Assembly: GCA_035873375.1 (NCBI GenBank) | Contig: JAYWMQ010000016.1 | Coordinates: 1-50,655, forward strand | Length of the DNA stretch: 50,655 bases | Direction: 5' to 3' | Source of the DNA: Nitrospirota bacterium | GTDB lineage: Bacteria; Nitrospirota; Thermodesulfovibrionia; Thermodesulfovibrionales; JdFR-85 | Part shown: one piece after another, positions 6,536 to 47,358 of the stretch | Position numbering within the stretch: the first letter of the stretch is position 1 | Layout: each line of letters starts with the position of its first letter | Position numbers and translations under genes: made by a program | The notes under the pieces: generated by a model | What the model was told of the DNA's origin: nothing | Databases searched by the model: none | Seen by the model: only the letters and a program-made list of their open reading frames with translations

Positions 6536-7306
6536 ATGGTAGAAGCCCTGAGACATCTGAGATGGCAGGATATACTGGACATTATCGTTGTAGCTCTTGT
6601 CCTGTACAGAGTGCTTCTGATCATAAACGGCACAAGGGCTGTCCAGATGCTCATCGGCCTTGGTGTTCTGCTGGGCGCCTTTTTTCTCTCCAGTTACCTC
6701 AAGCTTCATACAATGTACTGGATTATACAGAGCTTATGGGCACAGGTTGTCCTTGCCCTGATAATCCTTTTTCAGCCGGAGATAAGAAAGGCCCTCGCCC
6801 AGATGGGAGAGACCTCTTTTCTGCCTTCCCTTACCTCGGCCTCGGAACTGAAGTCACTGGAAGAGATAGTCAGGGCTACAGTGGCGCTGTCCAGCAGAAA
6901 GATAGGCGCCCTGATTGTAATTGAAAGGGATATATCACTCAAGGATTTTATAGAGATCGGGACGCCGCTTGATGCAAAGGTTTCAAAGGAGATTCTCCTC
7001 AGCATTTTTCATCCGAGCTCTCCCATGCATGACGGTGCAGTCATTATAAGGATTGACAGGATAGTGGCAGCAGGATGTTTTCTGCCCATAACCTTCAGGA
7101 CGGACATAAGCCGCGCCCTGGGCACAAGACACCGGGCTGCAATCGGTATAACCGAAGAGACTGATGCCGTTGCCATAACAACTTCAGAGGAGACAGGCAT
7201 GATCTCTTTTGCGGTTAACGGAGAGCTGGAGACTCACATGGATATGGGACACCTGCGCGATATACTTACGGAGATGTTCACAGAAAGAAAGAAGGGAAAG
7301 AAATGA
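6536..7306 (+). CDS. cdaA: Diadenylate cyclase CdaA
   Basis: Synthesises the second messenger c-di-AMP from two ATP molecules. Three hydrophobic N-terminal helices (about residues 12-80) anchor the protein. The DAC (DisA_N) domain follows with its two diagnostic motifs: DGA at 166-168 (in MHDGAVI) and RHR at 198-200 (in LGTRHRAA). The 256-residue length and topology match the CdaA/DacA class rather than DisA. GGAGGG lies upstream of the ATG. The stop overlaps the cdaR start by four bases, so the two are translationally coupled. This implies c-di-AMP control of potassium/osmolyte balance or wall synthesis in this organism, although no receptor is recognisable in the window. Confidence 0.95.
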   Translation: MVEALRHLRWQDILDIIVVALVLYRVLLIINGTRAVQMLIGLGVLLGAFFLSSYLKLHTMYWIIQSLWAQVVLALIILFQPEIRKALAQMGETSFLPSLTSASELKSLEEIVRATVALSSRKIGALIVIERDISLKDFIEIGTPLDAKVSKEILLSIFHPSSPMHDGAVIIRIDRIVAAGCFLPITFRTDISRALGTRHRAAIGITEETDAVAITTSEETGMISFAVNGELETHMDMGHLRDILTEMFTERKKGKK

Positions 7307-7953
7307 GGGATTTACTCTTTAAAAACCTCGGCCTCAAGATACTCGCTCTCTGCCTGGCTGTAATCCTCTGGTTCCTGATATCCGGCAGGGGAGTCTCCGA
7401 AATCACCCTTGAAGTACCCATAGAATATATAAACATCCCGCCGGGATTTGAGATAATAAAAAAGGACCGTGATACGGTCAGGGTGAGTCTCTTTGGCAGT
7501 GAAGTGGTACTCAGGTCGATCAAGCCCGAAGACCTGAGGGTTTATGTAGACCTGAAAGACGCACAGCCCGGGAAAGGGGCATACAGGATAAAAAAACGTA
7601 ATATAAAGGTGCCGCCGGCCCTTACAATCTCCAACGTAAACCCTTCAAAGGTAAATATCATCCTTGACAGGACAGTCAGGAAAAAAGTCCCTGTAAAGCC
7701 TGACATTTCCGGAGAGCCGGCGCCGGGGAAATATATAAGTCAGATAATCATAAAACCTGAGGAGGTGGAAGTAGAAGGACCAGAGAGTGTGCTGAAAAAT
7801 ATCTCCTTTGTCAGGACAGAGCCCATAGATATATCCGGACTGGATGAAAGCAGTATAAGCAAGGTCAATATAGTATCAGACATACCTGCTGCAAGATTAA
7901 TGACAGGAAAAGTAGATGTACACATCATTATCAAGGAAGGAACAGAAAAATGA
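7303..7953 (+). CDS. cdaR: YbbR-domain regulator of diadenylate cyclase (CdaR-like)
   Basis: 216 residues: one N-terminal membrane helix (LKILALCLAVILWFLISG) followed by tandem YbbR beta-rich repeats outside the membrane. Repeat boundaries show as the PP/IRP-type turns around residues 40-60, 95-115 and 145-165. In Firmicutes, CdaR binds CdaA and modulates c-di-AMP output. Here it overlaps cdaA by four bases and glmM by four bases, the same gene order as cdaA-ybbR-glmM elsewhere. The role follows from position and domain; repeat number is shorter than in Bacillus CdaR. Confidence 0.85.
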   Translation: MRDLLFKNLGLKILALCLAVILWFLISGRGVSEITLEVPIEYINIPPGFEIIKKDRDTVRVSLFGSEVVLRSIKPEDLRVYVDLKDAQPGKGAYRIKKRNIKVPPALTISNVNPSKVNIILDRTVRKKVPVKPDISGEPAPGKYISQIIIKPEEVEVEGPESVLKNISFVRTEPIDISGLDESSISKVNIVSDIPAARLMTGKVDVHIIIKEGTEK

Positions 7954-9299
7954 AACTTTTTGGAACTGATGGTATCCGCGGACGGGTTAACAGGAACCCC
8001 ATGACTCCGGAACTCGTACTGAAGGTGGGCATGGCTGCAGCAAAGGTATTGAGAAAAGAGGAGGGGAGGAACCTGGTCCTTATTGGCAAGGATACCCGTA
8101 TATCAGGCTATATGATAGAGAGCGCCCTGACATCCGGGATATGCTCCATGGGGATGAATGTCATCCTTGTAGGACCCATACCCACTCCGGGCATAGCCTT
8201 CCTGACACGAACGATGAGGCTTGATGCAGGAGTCGTTATCTCTGCATCACATAATCCCTTTGAGGATAACGGAATCAAGTTTTTCTCGTTTGACGGGTTC
8301 AAACTCCCTGACAAGGTGGAAAAAGAGATAGAAGCCCTGGTCAAGGATGACTCCTTTCTTGCAAAAAGACCTACCGGAGCATCCATAGGAAAGACCTACA
8401 GGCTTGAGGATGCAACCGGGAGGTACATAGAATTCATAAAATCCACGATCCCGAAGGGCATGAATCTTGAGGGCCTGAGGGTAGTGGTGGATTGTGCCAA
8501 CGGGGCGGCGTACAAAATTACCCCGGAGGTGCTGACCGAACTGGGCGCAGATGTTATTACAATAAACAACAATCCCGACGGCACGAATATCAATCACTGT
8601 TGCGGCTCCACTGACCTTGCACATCTTAAAGAAGAGGTATTGCGCAATGCCGCACATATCGGGGTTGCTCATGATGGTGATGCCGACAGGACCCTCTTTG
8701 TCGATGAGACAGGCAGGGAGGTGGACGGAGACAAGGTCCTGGCTATCTGGGGCGTGGCACTGAAAAAAGAGGGCAAACTGAAGAATGATGCCGTGGTTGC
8801 AACAGTTATGAGCAACCTTGGAATTGAACATTACCTTCAGAGAAAGGGGATAAAGCTCATAAGGACAGACGTGGGAGACAGGTTTGTGGTTGAGGAGATA
8901 CAGAGGGGAGGCTACAACCTTGGAGGGGAGCAGTCAGGGCATATAATATTTTTTGACTACAACACAACAGGAGACGGCCCTGTTACCGCACTTCAGATGC
9001 TTTATCTCATGAAGAAAACAGGAGCACCTCTTTCCGAGATGGTCTCCGACATATTCCTCTACCCCCAGATCCTCGAAAATGTAAAGGTGAAGAAAAAAGA
9101 TATTATTAAAAATACCGGGGTTGTAAGGAAGATAAAAGAGGCTGAAAAGATACTCGACGGAAAAGGCAGGGTGCTTGTGAGGCCCTCCGGCACTGAGCAG
9201 AAGGTAAGGGTCATGGTTGAGGGCAGTGACAGGGAGACAATACAGGCCGTTGCTGCCGGGATTGTCAAAACAATTTTATCGGCAAGCAGTCGGGATTAA
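7950..9299 (+). CDS. glmM: Phosphoglucosamine mutase GlmM
   Basis: Converts glucosamine-6-P to glucosamine-1-P for UDP-GlcNAc, peptidoglycan and LPS synthesis. 449 residues, the standard length. It opens with KLFGTDGIRG. The phosphoserine loop ISASHNP places the catalytic serine at residue 100, the Mg2+ loop HDGDADR has Asp242/244/246, the sugar-binding GGEQSGH motif is present, and RPSGTEQKVRVM forms the C-terminal phosphate-binding loop. The four-base ATGA overlap with cdaR shows coupling. GlmM is known to bind and inhibit CdaA in some Firmicutes, so co-transcription may link wall-precursor supply with c-di-AMP level. Confidence 0.96.
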   Translation: MKLFGTDGIRGRVNRNPMTPELVLKVGMAAAKVLRKEEGRNLVLIGKDTRISGYMIESALTSGICSMGMNVILVGPIPTPGIAFLTRTMRLDAGVVISASHNPFEDNGIKFFSFDGFKLPDKVEKEIEALVKDDSFLAKRPTGASIGKTYRLEDATGRYIEFIKSTIPKGMNLEGLRVVVDCANGAAYKITPEVLTELGADVITINNNPDGTNINHCCGSTDLAHLKEEVLRNAAHIGVAHDGDADRTLFVDETGREVDGDKVLAIWGVALKKEGKLKNDAVVATVMSNLGIEHYLQRKGIKLIRTDVGDRFVVEEIQRGGYNLGGEQSGHIIFFDYNTTGDGPVTALQMLYLMKKTGAPLSEMVSDIFLYPQILENVKVKKKDIIKNTGVVRKIKEAEKILDGKGRVLVRPSGTEQKVRVMVEGSDRETIQAVAAGIVKTILSASSRD

Positions 9300-12391: not shown

Positions 12392-12471
12392 GATGTCATT
12401 AAATGCGATCATGATAAATGATAGGTCTTTAATTGATTGGCCAATGGTTGGCTGAACGCTGTCGATTAATT

Positions 12472-12520
12472 TGTGCGTATAGTTGTTTGATGGCGTAATC
12501 TCTTTTAACGCACATTTTTT
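12472..12520 (+). promoter_or_regulatory. Possible structured leader / attenuator before the RRM gene
   Basis: TGTGCGT (12472-12478) can pair with ACGCACA (12508-12514), and six T residues follow at once (12515-12520), directly before the ribosome site GAGGGAAGG. A competing hairpin can form between GCGT (12493-12496) and the same ACGC arm. Mutually exclusive pairings of this kind are typical of attenuators or temperature-responsive leaders. The 29-base loop of the first stem makes it weak, so the call is tentative. Confidence 0.3.
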
Positions 12521-28235: not shown

Positions 28236-29081
28236 ATGGATATGTATAAAAAAATCCTCTCAGCAGTCAATGAACACCTGAATTCGGAAGTCTCTGCAAG
28301 GTATGCATTGCACCTTGCCAGGGCCTGCAGGGCAAAGTTTTATATCTCTTTTATCGCAGACAGTGGTATGCCGCAATCAGGCATTGATAAGGCCGGGAAG
28401 GCTATGAAGAGATTGTTTGCAGAGGCAAGGAATCTGGGTGTTCAGGTGGAGAGTATCACAGGTGTTGGCGATCCGGTAAGAGAGATTGACAGGATTGTCA
28501 GGCATGAGGGAATCAACCTGGTTTTTGCATCTACGAGGCGGGAGGATGTTGAGAAGAGGTTTTATGCCGGTACCATTGCCCGGAGGCTCTCCTTGAGGCT
28601 TCCGTGTTCAGTAGCACTCGTAAGGGTGGTTCACATGGGAAAGATTCATCCGCACAAGATACTCGTCCCGCTTAAGGCAAGGATTAATCGTATGAAAGAG
28701 AGGGTCTTTTTTACTGCAAAGATGGCAGAGGCCTTCAATTCAAAAGTGTCTGTATTCCATTGCACGGAGCCGATAGTAAGGTTTTTTCATGGTGAGATTC
28801 CCCTCACCCCTGTCCAGAGAAAGGCAGGGTTGCCCGGGGATATATCGGATTTTATGGAGCATATCGGAAAATACAGGATAGAGCTTGAGGGGAGGCTTTC
28901 ATCCGGGGCTGCATTGAGAAGCATAACAATTGAGGCTGCTTCAAAGAGGCACGACCTTATAATAATGGGGGCCAGCGAGCGGAGTCTTCTGGCCTCCATT
29001 CTGAAAGGGAATCCCGTGGAAGACGTGCTCAGGGAGACCCCATGTAATCTCATAATCCTTAAACCGCGACATGAAGATTAA
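28236..29081 (+). CDS. Tandem universal stress protein (UspA-like)
   Basis: 281 residues made of two Usp folds (about 1-130 and 138-280), each starting with a strand of the type KKILSAVN and HKILVPLKA. The second ends with IIMGASERSLLASILKGNP, which resembles the Usp ATP-binding loop, but the final G-S is GN, so ATP binding is doubtful. It overlaps the following P-type ATPase by 11 bases, so the two are co-translated. In this context it may regulate or protect the transporter under ion or energy stress. It lies 78 bases downstream of the DedA-PAP2 gene. Confidence 0.85.
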   Translation: MDMYKKILSAVNEHLNSEVSARYALHLARACRAKFYISFIADSGMPQSGIDKAGKAMKRLFAEARNLGVQVESITGVGDPVREIDRIVRHEGINLVFASTRREDVEKRFYAGTIARRLSLRLPCSVALVRVVHMGKIHPHKILVPLKARINRMKERVFFTAKMAEAFNSKVSVFHCTEPIVRFFHGEIPLTPVQRKAGLPGDISDFMEHIGKYRIELEGRLSSGAALRSITIEAASKRHDLIIMGASERSLLASILKGNPVEDVLRETPCNLIILKPRHED

Positions 29082-31746
29082 TAATCTCGCAAGAGAGGAA
29101 GTCCTTCACACGCTTGTCACCTCGGAAGGGGGCCTTACCGAAGAAGAGGCAAAAAAACGATTTGAGGAGTTTGGACCAAACGAGATCCGGGAGGTAAAAA
29201 GGACTCCTTTACTGGTGAGGTTTCTCAGGCAGTTCACCCATTTCCTTGCCATCCTTCTGTGGATAGGGGCAGGGCTTGCCTTTTTATCAGAGTATCTGCA
29301 CCCGGGAGAAGGGATGCTGACACTCGGGCTTGCAATAGTTGGTGTCATATTTGTCAATGCAGTCTTTACATTCGTACAGGAGTACAGGGCTGAAAAATCC
29401 ATAGAAGTTTTAAAGCAGCTCCTTCCTTTTTATGTGAAGGTAATAAGGACGGGCATGGAGAAGGAGATACCCGCAAGAGATGTGGTAGTGGGAGACGTGA
29501 TAATCCTTTCAGAAGGGGACAGGGTTCCCGCAGATGCAAGGCTTATTGACAGTAATTACCTGATGGTGAACAATGCCCCCCTGACAGGTGAGTCCGAACC
29601 CGTGCCCCTTGATCACAACCCCTATGTGGGTGACCTGATCGAAAGCAGAAATATTGCCTTTGCCGGAACCACGGTGGTAAGCGGCACTGGAAAGGGTGTT
29701 GTCTTTGCAACGGGCATGAGGACGGAGTTCGGCCGTATAGCCCATCTGACAAGTGGTGTGGAGACAGGCTTGAGTCCGCTGCAGCAGGAGATTGTCAGGG
29801 TAACAAGGATTATTGCAGTCTTTGCAACAATAATGGGCATCTTCTTCTTTATGGTGGGACAGTTTATAGGCAGGAGTTTTTGGGAGAACTTCATCTTTGC
29901 CATAGGCATAATCGTGGCAAATGTGCCTGAGGGGCTGCTTCCCACGGTAACCCTCTCCCTTGCAATGGGAAGTCAAAGGATGGCAAGGAAGAAGGCATTG
30001 ATAAAGACCCTCACCTCTGTAGAAACACTCGGCTCCGTAACGGTCATATGCACTGACAAGACCGGCACACTTACCCGGAACTTGATGGAGGCAAAAAACT
30101 TCTGGTCTGACGGAGAGATTCACGGAATGGAGGACCTGAAGAAATCGGCTCTTCTCGCCACGATTGCAGGCCTCTGTAACAATGCAAGATTTATTGATGA
30201 TAAACACAGCGATGGCCAATACAGCGGAGACCCTACCGAGGTCGCCCTCTTAAAAGCTGTAAGGGAAAGGGTGGGTGACCTCAAAGGAGAGAGGATATTT
30301 GAGGTACCGTTTGATTCCGAGAGAAAGAGGATGACCACCGTGAATGTAATCGAGGGGAAAGAACTTGCCCTGACAAAGGGTGCCCTGGAAAGCGTGCTTC
30401 CCTTGTGCAGCCACATGCTGTTGAATGGTGAAGAGGTGGAGATGGATGAGCACCTGAGGAAGATGGCAGAGGATGCTTATCATTCACTGACCGGCAATGG
30501 CCTTCGGGTCCTCTCTTTTGCATACAGGGAGTTAAAAGACAGTGGGGCCTCGACTCTTAACCCTGCGGAGATAGAGAAAGACCTTGTCTTTGCAGGCCTG
30601 ATCGGTATTGAGGATCCTCCGAGACCAGAGGTCCCTGAAGCAATAAGAAGATGCCGTGAGGCAGGAATAAGGGTGATAATGATTACAGGTGACGGGAGCA
30701 GGACTGCTGTTGCCATCGCAAGGGAGATAGGACTTGTAAGGGAAAATCCTGTGGTGATAGAGGGACATGAATTTGAAAGGATGAAAGACAGGGAGCTCAG
30801 GGAGAGGCTTTCAGGCAGAGAGATAATATTTGCAAGAATGACGCCGAAATACAAGATGAGGGTCGTTTCCATACTTAAAGAAGGGGGTGAAAGGGTTGCA
30901 GTGACAGGGGACGGCGTTAATGATGCACCTGCCCTGAAAAAGGCTGATATCGGTATTGCAATGGGCATTGCAGGAACTGATGTGGCAAAGGAATCGGCAG
31001 ACATGATCCTGCTGGATGATAATTTTGCCTCCATAGTGAACGCCATAGAGGAAGGCAGGGCAGTGTATGAGAACATAAGAAAGTTTATGAGTTATATATT
31101 TTCGTCAAACATCCCCGAGATTGTACCGTATCTTGCCTATGTACTCTTCAGGATTCCGCTGCCCCTTACCATTATGCAGATACTTGCAGTTGATCTCGGA
31201 ACCGACATGCTTCCCGCCCTTGCCCTTGGGGCAGAGAAGCCCACAAAAGAGCTCATGAAACAACCTCCCAGGTCACCGCGTGAGAGGCTCCTGAATCTCA
31301 AGCTCTTGAGCCGGGCATACCTTTTTCTCGGACCCATAGAGGCAGCGGCAGCCATGTTCGGATTCTTCTATGTCCTGAATACGGGCGGGTGGACGTGGGG
31401 AGAGACGCTTGCAGCAGGCAATCCTCTATATATGCAGGCAACAACTGCATGCCTTACAGCCATAGTAGTCACTCAGGTTGCCAATGTCTTTGCATGCCGC
31501 TCTTTCAGAGAATCGGTATTCAGTATCGGTTTTTTCTCCAACAAATTGATATTTGTTGGCATAGCATTTGAGCTCCTGTTTCAGCTCTTTATTGTTTATC
31601 ATCCATTGGGGAACAGGATATTCTCAACATATCCCATCCCGCTAAAGGTCTGGCTTGTCCTGATACCTTTTGCATTTATTCTCTTTGCAGCAGAGGAGTT
31701 AAGGAAGTTTTTCCGGGCAGGCATACACAGAACTTCCTCTCCCTGA
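29071..31746 (+). CDS. P2-type cation ATPase resembling Na+/K+-ATPase alpha subunit (P2C-like)
   Basis: 891 residues. The cytoplasmic actuator (TGES), phosphorylation (DKTGTLT, Asp329) and hinge (GDGVNDAPAL) motifs are intact. Membrane motifs match animal Na,K-ATPase closely: TM4 ANVPEGLLPTVT (Glu287), TM5 SNIPEIVPYL (Asn680, Glu683) and TM6 VDLGTDMLPAL (Asp708, Asp712), followed by EKPTKELMKQPPR. In TM8 the residue corresponding to Asp926 of Na,K-ATPase appears to be Asn805 (QVANVF), so the third sodium site is probably absent. No beta subunit is visible. It likely moves Na+, K+, H+ or Ca2+; ion identity is open. It overlaps the stress-protein gene by 11 bases. Confidence 0.9.
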   Translation: MKINNLAREEVLHTLVTSEGGLTEEEAKKRFEEFGPNEIREVKRTPLLVRFLRQFTHFLAILLWIGAGLAFLSEYLHPGEGMLTLGLAIVGVIFVNAVFTFVQEYRAEKSIEVLKQLLPFYVKVIRTGMEKEIPARDVVVGDVIILSEGDRVPADARLIDSNYLMVNNAPLTGESEPVPLDHNPYVGDLIESRNIAFAGTTVVSGTGKGVVFATGMRTEFGRIAHLTSGVETGLSPLQQEIVRVTRIIAVFATIMGIFFFMVGQFIGRSFWENFIFAIGIIVANVPEGLLPTVTLSLAMGSQRMARKKALIKTLTSVETLGSVTVICTDKTGTLTRNLMEAKNFWSDGEIHGMEDLKKSALLATIAGLCNNARFIDDKHSDGQYSGDPTEVALLKAVRERVGDLKGERIFEVPFDSERKRMTTVNVIEGKELALTKGALESVLPLCSHMLLNGEEVEMDEHLRKMAEDAYHSLTGNGLRVLSFAYRELKDSGASTLNPAEIEKDLVFAGLIGIEDPPRPEVPEAIRRCREAGIRVIMITGDGSRTAVAIAREIGLVRENPVVIEGHEFERMKDRELRERLSGREIIFARMTPKYKMRVVSILKEGGERVAVTGDGVNDAPALKKADIGIAMGIAGTDVAKESADMILLDDNFASIVNAIEEGRAVYENIRKFMSYIFSSNIPEIVPYLAYVLFRIPLPLTIMQILAVDLGTDMLPALALGAEKPTKELMKQPPRSPRERLLNLKLLSRAYLFLGPIEAAAAMFGFFYVLNTGGWTWGETLAAGNPLYMQATTACLTAIVVTQVANVFACRSFRESVFSIGFFSNKLIFVGIAFELLFQLFIVYHPLGNRIFSTYPIPLKVWLVLIPFAFILFAAEELRKFFRAGIHRTSSP

Positions 31747-40594: not shown

Positions 40595-43201
40595 TTAAAC
40601 GATCCTTTCCTTTCTCAGGAATTTATAGACCCCCACCTTCACAAAGTCATTAAAAATAAACCATACAATGGCATAAATCCAGATATATATGGCGTATTTC
40701 CAGCCAATGGGTGTGATGAACCATCCGTAAGCGGCAAAGATTGTACCTATAACCTTTGTGGAAAAGCTTGCCCAGAGCAAAAGGGCGGATGGATACGGTT
40801 TCTGCCAGAAAAAGCCCCCGGGAGTCCTTGTAAGAAATATAGTCAGGTGTCCGGCAACAAGGAGTTTCAGGAATATCAGCGACTGTATAAGCTCACGGGA
40901 GAAGTGGAGGTATTTTTCAAGAATAAAGAATAGCAGGAAAGACGACAGGACACCTGCTATCCCGAGGACAGTAGAGACTGTGAGTATTTCCTGCAGATTC
41001 CATTTTGTGGGTTTTTTTTGCACACTTGCATTGTCATAGGCAAGTGTCAGTATCGGTATGTCGTTCAGCAGGGCAAGGAGGATAATCATTATTGCGGTCA
41101 CCGGATAAAAGTTAAACATCAGAATGGCCAGTGACATGAAGAGGATTACCCTTATGGTTTCAGCAATCCTGTATATTGTATAACTCTTCATCCTTCCAAA
41201 GATAACCCTGGAAAGCTCTATACCGTGCTCTATAACTGACAGGCCCGGTGCGGTCAGGATAACATCTGCGGCAGCCCTTGCCGCATCCGTGGCCCCTGAA
41301 ACTGCAATGCCGCAGTCAGCCTTTTTAAGGGCAGGCGCATCATTTACCCCGTCTCCTGTCATTGCAACCATATGTCCGCCCTTCTGCAGCTTTTCCACGA
41401 TTATGTATTTGTCTTCAGGATACACCTCTGCAAAACCATGTGAGTGCTCTATTAAATCAATAATTTCCGACTCATGCTTTTTGATATACCCTTCCGGGAT
41501 CTCTATATTCTTGAATTCTTTTTCAAGTTCCTGAATAACAGCCTTTGCAAACTTTTCGGCCTCGGTTTCCGTCATGTCAGGCTGAAGTTTTTTGTAAATC
41601 GCCCTCGCGAGCACCTCTCCTAAAAGGACCGTCTCCCTGTAACTTGCACTTCTCAATGCCACGGCACTGCATATCCTGTCTCCAATCCCGAGAAGCCTTG
41701 CTATCTGCCTGGCTATGGCGATGTTGTCTCCAGTGATCATCTTGACATCAACACCAAGCTTTCTCGTACTGTCAATCACTGATTTTGAGTCATCACGCGG
41801 TGGGTCAAAGAGGGGTATTATCCCTACAAGTCTGAAATACTTCTCATCTTCCTCTTTTATGGCAACTGCAATCGTCCTGAAACCTTCTTCTGCAAAGTCC
41901 TCAACGATCTCTTCCACTTTTTTCCTGTCAACGCCATTACCGCAGAGTTCAAGAATTACCTGAACCGCTCCTTTTACTACAGTAAAGGTCCTGATATCTG
42001 ACTTTATCGCTGCCTCTGTCCGTTTCCTTACCGGGTCAAAGGGGATAAATTTAATCTGCTGATAGTTTTCGGTTATATCTTTATACCCCATTTTCTGCCC
42101 GTAGCTGAAAATTGCCATATCAATGGGATCCTTATTTTCTTCCCTTGACGCAAGCTCGGCATACAGTACCAGATCCCGTTCCGTAAACCCGTCAAAAATT
42201 ACGGGGTTTTCCACCAGGAGCTCGTTTTTGGTTAGTGTCCCGGTCTTATCCGCACACAGGATATCGACCCCTGAGAGCTCTTCTATGGCAACGAGTCTGC
42301 TGACTATTGCCCGTTTTCTGGCAAGGCTTACTGCACCGACTGCCATTGTCACAGACAGCACCGCTGGAAGGGCAACAGGGATTGAGGCAACAGCGAGGAC
42401 AAGTGCGAACCTCAGGAGTTCAATCAGGGTCTCCCCTCTGTGTATCCCTGCGTACACTATCACTATAGTGAGGAGAAGTGTAATCGCAATGAGGTAATCA
42501 CCTATGCTTATGACGAGTTTTTGATAATGGCTTTTTTCTTCCCTCTCTGCCTTTGCAACGAGTGCCACGGTTTTACCGAAGTAAGTGTTAAGACCTGTGT
42601 TTACAACGAGTGCAAGCATCTCGCCCTGCTTGACTATGGAGTTTGAATAGACGACATCTTCTGCCTTTTTCTCAACAGGCAGGGATTCTCCTGTAAGGGC
42701 TGACTGGTCGACCAATAAATAATCGCCTTCCAGGAGTTTTGCATCCGATGGAATGATATCTCCAAGCTTAAGCTTTATGACGTCTCCGGGGACGAGATAC
42801 TTTGCGTCAGTCTCTTTAAACCTTCCGTCCCTGAGAACTATCGCCTTTTTGGCAAGTTTTTCCTTCAGGGTCTTTAATGCACTTATGGCTTTTGATTCCT
42901 GATAGAAGTCCAGTCCGGCATTGACAAAGAGCATGATCATTATTATTACAAAGTCTTCCCACTTCTGAACCAGTGCGGAAAGAATGGCTGCAACCTCTAT
43001 CATCCACGGAATGGGTCCCCAAAACCTCTTTAAAATCCTCCGGAGAGTGGATTCTTCCTTCTCGGGTATCTCGTTCAGTCCGTATCGGGCAAGTCTCTCC
43101 TGGGCCTCCCCTTCCGACAACCCCCTGTTCCTGTCGGTCTGCAGTTCCTTCAGCGTATTTTCGATAGAGAGCTTTTTGTAATCATCTGTGGTTTTTGGCA
43201 T
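40595..43201 (-). CDS. Plasma-membrane-type (P3A) proton-efflux P-type ATPase, copy 1
   Basis: 868 residues of the P3A group, akin to plant and fungal proton pumps. Motifs: DQSALTGESLPV (actuator), CADKTGTLTKNE with Asp318 phosphorylated, GDGVNDAPALKKAD, and TM4 IPVALPAVLSVTMAVGA. The Asn of TM2 (LFVNAGLDF) and Asp of TM6 (LLNDIPILT), which gate protons in plant AHA2, are kept. A helical insert of about 50 residues lies in the phosphorylation domain before GFAEVYPEDKY, compared with plant enzymes. It lacks the long C-terminal autoinhibitory tail. SD AAGGAGG precedes the ATG. It should pump protons out of the cytoplasm. A second copy lies 235 bases upstream. Confidence 0.93.
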   Translation of the reverse strand: MPKTTDDYKKLSIENTLKELQTDRNRGLSEGEAQERLARYGLNEIPEKEESTLRRILKRFWGPIPWMIEVAAILSALVQKWEDFVIIMIMLFVNAGLDFYQESKAISALKTLKEKLAKKAIVLRDGRFKETDAKYLVPGDVIKLKLGDIIPSDAKLLEGDYLLVDQSALTGESLPVEKKAEDVVYSNSIVKQGEMLALVVNTGLNTYFGKTVALVAKAEREEKSHYQKLVISIGDYLIAITLLLTIVIVYAGIHRGETLIELLRFALVLAVASIPVALPAVLSVTMAVGAVSLARKRAIVSRLVAIEELSGVDILCADKTGTLTKNELLVENPVIFDGFTERDLVLYAELASREENKDPIDMAIFSYGQKMGYKDITENYQQIKFIPFDPVRKRTEAAIKSDIRTFTVVKGAVQVILELCGNGVDRKKVEEIVEDFAEEGFRTIAVAIKEEDEKYFRLVGIIPLFDPPRDDSKSVIDSTRKLGVDVKMITGDNIAIARQIARLLGIGDRICSAVALRSASYRETVLLGEVLARAIYKKLQPDMTETEAEKFAKAVIQELEKEFKNIEIPEGYIKKHESEIIDLIEHSHGFAEVYPEDKYIIVEKLQKGGHMVAMTGDGVNDAPALKKADCGIAVSGATDAARAAADVILTAPGLSVIEHGIELSRVIFGRMKSYTIYRIAETIRVILFMSLAILMFNFYPVTAIMIILLALLNDIPILTLAYDNASVQKKPTKWNLQEILTVSTVLGIAGVLSSFLLFFILEKYLHFSRELIQSLIFLKLLVAGHLTIFLTRTPGGFFWQKPYPSALLLWASFSTKVIGTIFAAYGWFITPIGWKYAIYIWIYAIVWFIFNDFVKVGVYKFLRKERIV

Positions 43202-43436: not shown

Positions 43437-46040
43437 TCAGGCAATAATCTTGTCCTTTCGCAATAACTTATATGCCCAGACCTTGACAAAGTCGTTAATA
43501 ACAAACCAGGCAATGGCATACCCCCAAACTATCAAGGCATATTTCCAGCCTATAGGGGCAACAAACCATCCGTATACCACAAAGAGGGTTGCGAGAATTT
43601 TTGTCAGGATAGCTGCCCAGAGCAGTATGGGGGCAGGGTATGGTCTCCGCCAGAAACGGTCCTCTGTCCGTGTTATAAATATCGTCAGATGTCCGGCCAC
43701 TGCCAGTTTTAGAAATATAAAACTCTGTACAACAGGGGCAGAAAGGTGCATATACTCTTCGGCAATATAGAAGATTCCAAAGCTTGCAATGACACCCAGA
43801 ATGCCGAGCATGGTGGATATACTCATCACTTCCGCCATATTCCATTTGACGGGTTCAGCATCCACCTTGGTTCGGTCATATGCAATAGCCAGTATTGGCA
43901 GGTCATTCAGAAAGGCCAGGATAATAATCATGATTGCGGTAACCGGGTAGAAATTGAATATAACGATCGACGCCGTCATAAAGAGGATTACCCTGATTGT
44001 CTCGGCTATCCTGTAGAGACTGTAACTCTTCATCCTCTCAAATGTGACCCTTGCCCCCTTTATGGCATCAATGATTACGGACAATCCCGGTGCCAGCAAC
44101 ACAAGATCCGCTGCCGCCCGCGCGGCATCCGTTGCCCCTGAGACTGCGATACCGGCATCCGCCTTCTTTAATGCAGGTGCGTCATTGACGCCGTCACCCG
44201 TCATTCCAACGATATGCCCGGCCTTCTGAAGCTTGTCAACGATAAGGTATTTATCCTCAGGAAAGACCTGGGCAAAGCCATCGGCATCCTCTATCACCTC
44301 TATAATCTCCGACTCATGCCTCTTCACGTAGCCCTTTGGCAGCTCCATGGTTGCAAACTCTTTTTCCAGATCCTTTACAATCCCGGCTGCAACCCTCTGT
44401 GCATCCTCTTCCGTGGCGCCCGGAGACAACCTTTTATATACCGATTTTGCAATTATCTGCCCCAACACGATAAGTTCCTTATTGTTTGCTCCCTTAAGGT
44501 CTCTGGCATCCAGAATGTTTTCGCCAACCCCAAGGATATTTGCTATATGTTTTGCAATGGCTACATTATCTCCCGTAACCATCTTGATGTTTAACCCGAG
44601 TTTCTTTGCCTCTTCTATCGTCTCTTTTGAGTCTTCCCGTGGTGGATCAAAAAGCGGAAGCAGGCCTATAAATTCATAATGTTTGTCGTCCGGCTGCTTT
44701 ATTGCAATCCCCAGTGTTCTGAACCCCTTCTCTGCAAAATCCTCCACCTTTTCCAGTATATCCTGCTTGTCAACCTGATCTCCGCATAACTCAAGTATTA
44801 CCTGGGAAGCCCCCTTGGTAACTATAAACGTCTTGTCCCCTGACTTTACAGTCGCCTCTGTTCTTTTGCTTACAGGATCAAATGGTGTAAACTTCAGCTG
44901 CTGATACTGTTTTAACTCTTTCAGCTTTCCTGTTTTTTTCAGGTACTCAAAAATAGGCATCTCTATCGGGTCCTTATTCTCTTCACTTGAAGCAAGTGCT
45001 GCATAAAGCATTAATTCCTCAACGCTATGCCCGTAAAAGGTGACCGGATCAGAGACCGTCATCCTGTTCTGGGTTAATGTTCCCGTCTTGTCGGAACAGA
45101 GGACATCAACTCCGGCGAGTTCTTCTATGGAGACGAGGCGGCTTACAATAGCCTGTTTCTTTGCCAGGCTCATAGCCCCGACAGCCATTGTCACGGAGAG
45201 CACCGCAGGCAGTGCAACGGGAATTGCGGCGACCGTCAGGATAAGGGTAAACCTCAGTATCTCGATCATATTTTCATGTCTGAACAAGGCAGTGATCAGG
45301 ATAATTGCGGCGAGGAATATGGTGATGATAATCAGATAATTTCCTATATGGACAACGGCTTTCTGAAAATGACTTTTCTCTTCTCTCTGGGCCCTTGCCA
45401 CAAGTGCAACGGTTTTACCGAAAAAGGTATTCAGTGCCGTGTTGGTAACTACTGATAACATCTCTCCCTGTTTTATTATGGAATTGGAATATGCGACATC
45501 CCCGACTTTTTTGCTGACGGGTAATGACTCACCTGTCAGTGCCGACTGGTCGGCCTGCAGATAATCCCCCTCTACGAGTTTTACATCTGCCGGGACCAGG
45601 TCCCCGATTCTTACCTTTATGATGTCTCCGGGGACCAACTCCTTGGCCTCTATTGTCTGAAACTTTCCGTCCCGCAAAACAAGCGCCTGCTTTGCCAGTT
45701 TTTCCTTTAATACCTTTAAGGCATTTAATGCCTTTGACTCCTGCCATAAGTCTATGAATGCATTGGTTAGAAGCAGAATCATTATTATTGTGAAATCCTC
45801 CCACCTGCGGACTACTGCAGAGAGCAGGGCCGCAACTTCGATCATCGCGGGAATAGGTCCCCAGAAGCGCCTGAAGACCCTGTGAAATGTAGATTCCTCT
45901 TTTTCCGGGATTTCATTGTAGCCGTATTGCTCTAATCTCTTTCTGGCCTCCTCTGATGATAGTCCCCTCTCTTTGTCTGTCTGTAGTGCTTTAATCGTTT
46001 CATCTACTGATAACTTTTCGTAATCCTCGGTCTTTGCCAT
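43437..46040 (-). CDS. P3A proton-efflux P-type ATPase, copy 2
   Basis: 867 residues from ATG 46040 (AGGAGG five bases before; the longer frame from 46085 adds 15 unlikely residues). It has the same plan as copy 1 along its whole length: DQSALTGESLPV, CSDKTGTLTQNR with Asp317, GDGVNDAPALKKADAG, TM4 IPVALPAVLSVTMAVGA, TM2 LLTNAFIDLWQE and TM6 FLNDLPILA. The same helical insert precedes GFAQVFPEDKY. Conserved proton-path Asn and Asp suggest H+ transport. The start overlaps the 3' end of the APC permease by 41 bases, so translation is likely coupled. The 235-base gap to copy 1 contains no recognisable gene. Confidence 0.93.
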   Translation of the reverse strand: MAKTEDYEKLSVDETIKALQTDKERGLSSEEARKRLEQYGYNEIPEKEESTFHRVFRRFWGPIPAMIEVAALLSAVVRRWEDFTIIMILLLTNAFIDLWQESKALNALKVLKEKLAKQALVLRDGKFQTIEAKELVPGDIIKVRIGDLVPADVKLVEGDYLQADQSALTGESLPVSKKVGDVAYSNSIIKQGEMLSVVTNTALNTFFGKTVALVARAQREEKSHFQKAVVHIGNYLIIITIFLAAIILITALFRHENMIEILRFTLILTVAAIPVALPAVLSVTMAVGAMSLAKKQAIVSRLVSIEELAGVDVLCSDKTGTLTQNRMTVSDPVTFYGHSVEELMLYAALASSEENKDPIEMPIFEYLKKTGKLKELKQYQQLKFTPFDPVSKRTEATVKSGDKTFIVTKGASQVILELCGDQVDKQDILEKVEDFAEKGFRTLGIAIKQPDDKHYEFIGLLPLFDPPREDSKETIEEAKKLGLNIKMVTGDNVAIAKHIANILGVGENILDARDLKGANNKELIVLGQIIAKSVYKRLSPGATEEDAQRVAAGIVKDLEKEFATMELPKGYVKRHESEIIEVIEDADGFAQVFPEDKYLIVDKLQKAGHIVGMTGDGVNDAPALKKADAGIAVSGATDAARAAADLVLLAPGLSVIIDAIKGARVTFERMKSYSLYRIAETIRVILFMTASIVIFNFYPVTAIMIIILAFLNDLPILAIAYDRTKVDAEPVKWNMAEVMSISTMLGILGVIASFGIFYIAEEYMHLSAPVVQSFIFLKLAVAGHLTIFITRTEDRFWRRPYPAPILLWAAILTKILATLFVVYGWFVAPIGWKYALIVWGYAIAWFVINDFVKVWAYKLLRKDKIIA

Positions 46041-47358
46041 CCTTACCTCCTTCGAGCTTCTGTTTAAAGAACAATCTTCGTTCACTGAAGAACAATTCCG
46101 CCACTACTACACACAGATAAATTGTACCTATCCATACCAGGCCCTTCGAATATGACCTGTAAAGATAAACGCACAGGACCAGCCATGACAAGAGTGACAG
46201 GATAAGGCCTGAAAGGGGTGTAACCATGTTTATACCAATCCTCTTCCGGAGTCTGACGGCTGACAGGTTGATTGCCGCAAAGAGCAGCAGAAAGGTGGAG
46301 CTGGCAAATGATGATATGATTGTCAGGTCGGTTGTATTCACAAAGAGCAGTGTCAGCACAGTGAGAAATATAAGGCTCACATAGGGGATATTGTTTCTCC
46401 GTTCCCTGTGTGAGAAAACCCTCGGAAGGTCGGAGTCCTGTGCCATCACCATTGCAAGGCGTGCAGTCCCAAACATGGTGGCATTTATGGCGGATGCGGT
46501 GGAGAGCAGTGCCCCCAGCCCTATCAACATAAAGCCCGCTTTGCCCAGGAATGGTTTTGCCGCCACGGCAAGGGCATACTCCTTATATTTGCTGATCTCT
46601 GCGGGCAACAGGTTGCCCACTGCAACCAGGGAAACAAGGATATAAATGGCAATGGTAACGCCGATGGATATCAGAATCCCCCTGCCAAGGTCCCTGCCGG
46701 GGTCCTTCATTTCATTTACCGCATTCGGGATTAACTCGAACCCCTCATAGGCCACAAATACGAGGGCTGCACCCATCAGCACCCCTCTGCCGCCCATGTT
46801 GAAAACCGGCACAAGGTGATCCACCCTGATATAGAAGAGACCGGCAAATGCAAAGAGGGAGAGAATCAGCACCTTGACCATAACTATCAGGTCCTCGCTC
46901 TCTCCTGCGGCCTTGATACCGTAGAGATTGATTCCCATGAAGAGAAGAAGGATCAGGGATTGCAGCAGGTGGTGCATGGCTTGAAGATGCGCCTTTGCAC
47001 CGAACATTGCCGCTCCATAAACCCCGAATGTAAACGCGTAAAGGGCCATTGTCCCGATATAACCCGCCACAAGCATCCAGCCTCCGATTCCGGCAACGTT
47101 TCTTTGGCTGAACGCGCGTTCCAGATACGTAAAACTGCCGCCATCCGAACGAAACGTCAGACCGAGTTTAGTGTATGAATAACCGGTTAAAGAGGCGATT
47201 ATGCCACCAATGATGAAGGCGATAGGGGCTGCGTGACCGGCCAATGCCACAGAGAGGCCAAGGACGGAAAATATACCGCCCCCCACCATGCCCCCCACGC
47301 CCATGGCTATGAGCTCCTTGAGACCGAGTTTTTCTGTTTTTGCGGTTTTATTCATCAA
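46000..47358 (-). CDS. APC-superfamily amino-acid permease
   Basis: 452 residues with about twelve membrane segments. The N-terminal MGVGGMVGGGIFSVLG is the unwound TM1 substrate motif; FVAYEGFELIPNAVNEMKDPGRDLGRGI is the TM6 region with the usual Glu and Asn. The family takes up or exchanges amino acids or polyamines using proton or antiport coupling. The C-terminus is short and basic (GLRKVISR). Its end overlaps the proton-ATPase start by 41 bases, implying a two- or three-gene transcript. In acid-resistance systems, APC antiporters exchange amino acids for decarboxylation products, but no decarboxylase is present here, so that role is speculative. Confidence 0.88.
   Translation of the reverse strand: MMNKTAKTEKLGLKELIAMGVGGMVGGGIFSVLGLSVALAGHAAPIAFIIGGIIASLTGYSYTKLGLTFRSDGGSFTYLERAFSQRNVAGIGGWMLVAGYIGTMALYAFTFGVYGAAMFGAKAHLQAMHHLLQSLILLLFMGINLYGIKAAGESEDLIVMVKVLILSLFAFAGLFYIRVDHLVPVFNMGGRGVLMGAALVFVAYEGFELIPNAVNEMKDPGRDLGRGILISIGVTIAIYILVSLVAVGNLLPAEISKYKEYALAVAAKPFLGKAGFMLIGLGALLSTASAINATMFGTARLAMVMAQDSDLPRVFSHRERRNNIPYVSLIFLTVLTLLFVNTTDLTIISSFASSTFLLLFAAINLSAVRLRKRIGINMVTPLSGLILSLLSWLVLCVYLYRSYSKGLVWIGTIYLCVVVAELFFSERRLFFKQKLEGGKDGKDRGLRKVISR

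Follow-up and report, generated by a model that had tools for sequence, protein, structure and literature searches.

In a 50,655-nucleotide stretch of a Nitrospirota bacterium genome (contig JAYWMQ010000016.1 of assembly GCA_035873375.1; hereafter the window), an open and intact reading frame with an ATG start encodes an 891-residue P-type ATPase with an ion pocket like that of the animal Na,K-ATPase (NKA). Alignment with NKA leads us to infer that this pocket keeps its number of carboxylates at six, with one of them shifted from transmembrane helix (TM) 8 to TM7. The protein and its relatives make up a large group of bacterial pumps in which the third-site carboxylate apparently lies on TM7 and a gene for a universal stress protein (Usp) is a conserved partner. 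A group with the same pocket and the third carboxylate on a different helix bears on the question of how the animal sodium pump gained its Na+-exclusive third site, and the conserved Usp gene suggests a first candidate for what might regulate such a pump when no beta subunit is present. The original prediction for this gene had described a bacterial NKA-like pump that lacks the third sodium-site aspartate, and had expected a changed stoichiometry or ion choice from that loss; it had overlooked the TM7 glutamate, the overlapping Usp gene and the group-wide occurrence of the TM8 asparagine.

The ion-binding pocket

The protein has a full set of P2 ATPase domains in a domain search and contains the motifs DKTGT (residues 329-333), PEGL (286-289), SSNIPE (678-683) and DLGTD (708-712). 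The TM4, TM5 and TM6 motifs (PEGL, SNIPE, DLGTD) are close to those of animal NKA, as originally described, and the residues of sites I and II, namely E327, S775, N776, E779, D804 and D808 of NKA, are all matched by E287, S679, N680, E683, D708 and D712. At the third site, two alignments, one by phmmer against the PDB and one by MAFFT of 95 sequences (the window protein, NKA alpha-3, LMCA1, SERCA1 and fetched relatives), agree in placing Asn805 opposite the TM8 aspartate of NKA, which is D923 in alpha-3 and D926 in pig alpha-1. The modelled M8 (residues 785-808) is without any charged residue.

The absence of the third-site aspartate is true, but it is a trait of the group and not special to this protein. 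Residues were counted in an alignment of 99 rows, with 61 prokaryotic rows that have an acid at the position of Asp708 set against 36 rows with a TM6 Asn, the latter being P2A- and P2B-like and including LMCA1 and SERCA1. The Asp926 column of the 61 rows, which are related and not independent, holds Asn 57 times, Ala twice, Thr and Met once each and Asp never, which rules out a loss peculiar to one protein; judged by this column, Asn is what the prokaryotic members of the group normally carry. SERCA likewise has an asparagine, Asn911, at this position. One of the 61 rows (L053, with Asp708) sits on the P2A side of the tree. Left out were two loci without a usable ATPase frame (L007, L064), a split Sinorhizobium gene with no long enough frame (L096) and a sequence with His at position 708 (L094_2); loci L001-L003 and L011 are repeats of the source genome.

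On TM7, Glu757 takes the position of NKA Gln854. The equivalent residue of the non-gastric H,K-ATPase (ngHKA), Gln873, is named as a TM7 residue coordinating site III (PMC9463140), the two numberings being related by a constant offset of 19 that also links Gln942 to Gln923, Asp945 to Asp926, Tyr790 to Tyr771 and Lys794 to Ser775. This column holds Glu in 52 of the 61 rows (Gln in four, Ser in two, and Ile, Ala and Gly in one each) and in none of the 36 TM6-Asn rows. Glu757 is the sole charged residue within the M7 core of the window protein, and the alignment around the conserved Gly754 is ungapped near it. A similar distribution is found on TM9 for Glu834 in the Glu954 column, with Glu in 60 of the 61 rows and again in 0 of the 36. 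The other pocket columns of the 61 rows are occupied by the NKA residue to a comparable extent (Tyr771 and Gln923 in 61 each; Glu779 in 60; Asp804 in 60, plus one Glu; Asp808 and Asn776 in 58 each; Ser775 in 57; Cys930 in 53; Pro778 in 52). Against the six acidic pocket residues of NKA, Glu327, Glu779, Asp804, Asp808, Asp926 and Glu954 (PMC5233988), the alignment sets Glu287, Glu683, Asp708, Asp712, Glu757 and Glu834. No description of a TM7 Glu in such pumps was found in the open-licence literature searched.

A haloarchaeal relative on a plasmid of Natrinema caseinilyticum (L097) also combines the TM7 Glu with the TM8 Asn, and has a Usp gene adjoining on the opposite strand.

Family placement

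Kinship with NKA holds in sequence searches and in phylogeny. Among PDB entries, phmmer scored NKA highest (634 bits, against 491 for LMCA1, 450 for SPCA1 and 420 for SERCA), and the best type II model of NCBIfam was TIGR01106 (P2C, Na,H/K antiporter P-type ATPase alpha) with 713.2 bits against 661.8, 514.3, 472.4 and 429.9, a score below its curated cut-off of 946.1. The Ca2+-pump models were also under their cut-offs, with 661.8 bits (cut-off 798.3) for the PMR1-type TIGR01522 and 514.3 bits (703.4) for the SERCA-type TIGR01116. When columns 757 and 805 were masked, a 36-row maximum-likelihood tree united 24 prokaryotic rows and NKA in one clade (support 100/100) that excludes LMCA1 and two P2A-type paralogues, which are the two other PF00689 pumps of the source genome; the grouping with P2A Ca2+ pumps that had been named as counting against the original prediction did not occur.

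Within the clade, NKA stands beside Pseudomonadota and related rows (100/98), on a long branch, and keeping the prokaryotic rows together without NKA costs 16.6 log-likelihood units (p = 0.0445 in the approximately unbiased test). The nesting of NKA among bacterial rows is marginal by this value and given the long branch, so the larger clade alone is claimed. A quick tree, built without methanogen or protist P2C sequences, needs one change for the Asp at position 805, on the NKA branch.

An AlphaFold2 model from an 18-row alignment (mean predicted local distance difference test score 82; predicted template modelling score 0.74) was compared with known structures by VIA-align. NKA (8jfz) was the best match, with Z 42.0, a root-mean-square deviation (rmsd) of 5.0 and 887 aligned residues, and LMCA1 (9evc; Z 39.4, rmsd 5.2, 831 aligned) and SERCA (5ncq; Z 37.1, rmsd 4.4, 878 aligned) followed closely. 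Ion choice is not decided by fold alone.

The protein is P2C-like and not a proven NKA, because the cut-off of the family model, Asp926, Trp924 and the SYGQ motif of alpha/beta assembly are all missed; the window protein has no SYG. No match to the beta subunit family PF00287 was found in the source genome, and control genomes gave no match either. As for bacterial P2C pumps proper with Asp926, TIGR01106 was over its cut-off in 0 of 398 genomes in each of the two phyla searched, a search without a positive control in which 14 control genomes were equally silent at E <= 1e-150. The closest named relatives are Nitrospirota genomes, including a 422-residue piece with 94% identity from 'Nitrospirota bacterium isolate M_MetaBat.13'. 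Among the matches listed, about 65 of the 148 Nitrospirota genomes have one of at least 52% identity; with a paralogue as query, strong matches (E <= 1e-250) occur in 64 of 295 genomes.

Several known pumps can be compared with the window protein. With the animal NKA alpha chain (8d3u, 3wgu, 8jfz) the window protein shares the clade, TM4 PEGL, TM5 Y/SNIPE, TM6 DLGTD, Gln923 and Cys930 on TM8 and Glu954 on TM9; it differs in the changes Asp926 to Asn805, Gln854 to Glu757 and Trp924 to Val803, in its length (the alpha-3 chain has 1013 residues) and in having Usp for a partner gene. Gastric and non-gastric H,K-ATPases are alike in fold, in family kind and in the absence of Trp at position 924; their TM5 Lys (K791/K794) and TM8 Arg (R949) contrast with Ser679 and Cys809 here, and it is the window protein that has no equivalent of Asp926. 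LMCA1, a bacterial P2A Ca2+-ATPase (9euq, 6zhf), has the same overall architecture and differs by Asn instead of Asp on TM6, a TM8 Arg and no acid at positions 757 or 834. Among prokaryotic pumps, the 'Na,K-ATPase alpha' group I of PMC9609216 also lacks the SYGQ motif. The methanogen P2C pumps, compared by description only, keep all three-Na+ and two-K+ site residues according to a review (PMC10654040, section 7), unlike the window protein; the same section calls archaeal P2C-like pumps uncharacterised. Proteins labelled 'cation-transporting P-type ATPase' from Nostoc, Picosynechococcus and Lactiplantibacillus plasmids are about 44% identical and share TM6 DLGTD and the acid pocket; no adjacent Usp gene was found for them, and the Lactiplantibacillus row has Ala at both 757 and 805.

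A second P2C-like copy in one relative (L056, G120:C1:68044-70683, minus strand; also L178) is 58% identical to the window protein. Its TM5 TKIIPE and TM6 ELGTD carry a Lys and a Glu where gastric H,K-ATPase has the Lys791-Glu820 pair. The 11 nearest relatives fetched from other genomes (L180-L190) all lack this combination, and a Usp gene was not found next to the copy.

The overlapping Usp gene

The end of the Usp gene overlaps the start of the ATPase gene by 11 bases. With a hidden Markov model built from 15 neighbour genes, a Usp gene was found directly upstream of the ATPase, in the same orientation, in 28 of the 29 loci of orthologues (L012-L040); the remaining one (L031) offers only 370 bases of upstream sequence. 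It was also found in 12 of 12 wider loci (L166-L177), which come from genomes already among the 29. This contrasts with non-P2C loci with similar flanks (L061-L063, L073-L093), where a Usp match was found in 1 of 24, on the other strand (L077), and with Pseudomonadota P2C-like loci (L065-L071), where none of the seven has the gene beside the pump. Three Nitrospira-type loci (L111, L117, L118) likewise have Usp neighbours by Pfam. Linkage of this kind suggests that Usp is probably a regulatory partner of the pump; no description of a Usp/P2C-like gene linkage was found in the open-licence literature searched. At a further locus, the gene just before the ATPase orthologue encodes a CPA2-type cation/proton antiporter that has a TrkA_N domain (gene at L112:2722-4428), and is itself preceded by a Usp-like open reading frame.

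Proposed transport mechanism and alternatives

We tentatively favour a single-subunit, Usp-coupled, P2C-like Na+/K+ exchanger in which the site III carboxylate would come from TM7 Glu757. The pump would pass through the usual E1-E2 phosphorylation cycle, D329 and the P2 motifs being intact, and would export Na+ and take up K+ at sites I and II, as in NKA. At site III, the carboxylate would be provided by Glu757 rather than by TM8 Asn805, with Gln802, Ser679, Tyr675 and Glu834 kept, so the site may still accept a third monovalent cation (Na+ or H+). The Usp from the overlapping upstream gene would be co-produced with the pump and probably regulate it. Of the four residues that convert ngHKA into a Na+/K+ pump, the window protein has three (S679, P682, C809) and lacks the Trp (PMC9463140), and a link to K+ is provided by the genes that follow the ATPase in some relatives (see below). 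Glu757 weakens the expectation of a changed stoichiometry or ion choice: standing at another site III ligand position, it leaves the number of pocket carboxylates unchanged. An altered stoichiometry is possible, but Asn805 by itself does not imply it.

Several observations weigh against this exchanger. No transport data for any member of the prokaryotic group were found in the literature. The position of Trp924 is taken by Val803, and Trp is found there in 0 of the 61 rows; this residue is needed for building site III in ngHKA (PMC9463140). Glu757 is not universal, and pumps with neither acid exist, as shown by four Pseudomonadota rows that pair Gln757 with Asn805. Covariation of positions 757 and 805 as a sign of contact is not claimed either: the raw Fisher p of 0.0017 comes from 62 related rows, and on the tree only one informative independent pair remains. 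Lastly, neither a KimA homologue nor the riboswitch RF00379 was found in the source genome, and the link to K+ is made through relatives only.

The same missing Trp and the four rows with neither acid speak for an electroneutral pump with two sites, exchanging 2 Na+ for 2 K+, in which Asn805 and Val803 abolish site III and Glu757 is protonated or structural. In human alpha-3, the Asp923Asn change makes Na+ affinity fall more than 100-fold (PMC9463140), and neutralisation of the M8 Asp in NKA gives 2 Na+ per 2 K+ (PMC10812997); because of these effects, the two-site prediction, and with it the original expectation, stands if Glu757 does not reach site III. The frequencies of Glu757 and Glu834 in the 61 rows, compared with their absence from TM6-Asn pumps, point instead to a site III region under constraint, and we regard a two-site pump as unlikely, though a serious contender. 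Also unlikely, and slightly more so, is an extended form of the favoured exchanger with three sites, no beta subunit and a Usp partner tied to the control of K+ and cyclic di-adenosine monophosphate (c-di-AMP), in which the TM7 carboxylate and TM8 Asn, the pair seen in most of these bacterial pumps at present, would be the ancestral site III of the NKA branch, replaced in the animal lineage by Gln on TM7 and Asp on TM8.

Alternatively, Glu757 could act as a proton carrier in a P2C-like pump in which K+ is exchanged for H+, either alone or together with Na+. A moved carboxylate is compatible with proton transport, H,K-ATPases have Ile at the position of Trp924 (PMC9463140) and thus lack the Trp just as all 61 rows do, and the L056 copy has its TM5 Lys and TM6 Glu at gastric H,K-ATPase positions. 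The window protein, on the other hand, has Ser679 in place of the TM5 Lys, Asp708, and Cys809 in place of Arg, all of them NKA-like, and two P3A H+-ATPase genes in the window already provide H+ export; a proton-coupled pump is improbable. A P2A-kind pump for Ca2+ or another divalent ion, with a pocket only superficially like that of NKA, could draw on the fold common to Ca2+ pumps and on the shared SERCA Asn911, and is very improbable and was rejected on tree and residues: the tree sets the protein apart from LMCA1 and its own P2A-type paralogues, and none of the 36 TM6-Asn rows shares its TM6 Asp, TM9 Glu834 or TM7 Glu757. Its scores also fall below both Ca2+-pump cut-offs (662 of 798; 514 of 703).

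Possible links to potassium and c-di-AMP

A K+ or osmotic role for the pump is plausible, because the riboswitch and KimA are linked to the ATPase in relatives, the window has a gene for c-di-AMP cyclase (DAC), and in Firmicutes c-di-AMP is reported to bind the Usp domains of KdpD (PMC8214093, PMC4686210). In five of 21 relatives with wider flanks (G067, G104, G136, G113, G090), the ATPase is closely followed by RF00379, a c-di-AMP riboswitch scoring 82 to 92 bits, and then by a gene for a KimA-type K+ importer (loci L102, L106, L108, L110 and L166); this count is a lower bound, as some downstream flanks are short (280 bases in L103, 1239 bases in L104). The riboswitch and KimA of L108 (G113) lie about 1.9 kb downstream of the ATPase, and the KimA of L106 matches PDB entry 6s3k, 'Potassium transporter KimA', at 555 bits. 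The single DAC match of the source genome lies in the window (6536-7306, plus strand). No Na+ riboswitch was found beside the ATPase at the Rfam gathering threshold in the window and 56 loci, some of which are overlapping stretches of one genome. The DAC gene opens a run (6536-9299, plus strand) that continues with YbbR and phosphoglucomutase-family genes.

Other features of the window

Coordinates of the pump, its partner gene and the codons discussed above are given in Table 1.

Table 1. Positions in the window of the Usp and ATPase genes and of motifs in the pump; residues after the equals sign are those of NKA.
Feature	Position	Strand	Basis
Two-domain Usp gene, 281 residues	28236..29081	+	Pfam PF00582, two stretches
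P2C-like P-type ATPase, 891 residues	29071..31746	+	Domains, models, tree, AlphaFold2 model
TM4 VPEG motif, residues 285-288; E287 = Glu327	29923..29934	+	Motif and MAFFT alignment
Phosphorylation site DKTGT, D329	30055..30069	+	Motif; invariant across alignment
TM5 YIFSSNIPE, residues 675-683; Y675, S679, N680, P682, E683 = Y771, S775, N776, P778, E779	31093..31119	+	Alignment
TM6 DLGTD; D708, T711, D712 = D804, T807, D808	31192..31206	+	Alignment
TM7 Glu757 codon; position of Gln854 (ngHKA Gln873), site III ligand	31339..31341	+	phmmer and MAFFT alignments
TM8 QVANVFAC; Q802, V803, N805, C809 = Q923, W924, D926, C930	31474..31497	+	Alignments
TM9 Glu834 codon = Glu954	31570..31572	+	Alignment

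The source genome comprises 2.67 Mb in 63 contigs. Besides the pump described here, the window contains tandem genes for P3A-type proton-efflux ATPases, both on the minus strand (40595-43201 and 43437-46085; TIGR01647, 948 and 969 bits with a cut-off of 615.5), which brings the number of P-type ATPases within about 17 kb to three. A match to the Chlorobi-RRM RNA at 12431-12509 on the plus strand scores 50.1 bits, where the gathering score is 45.

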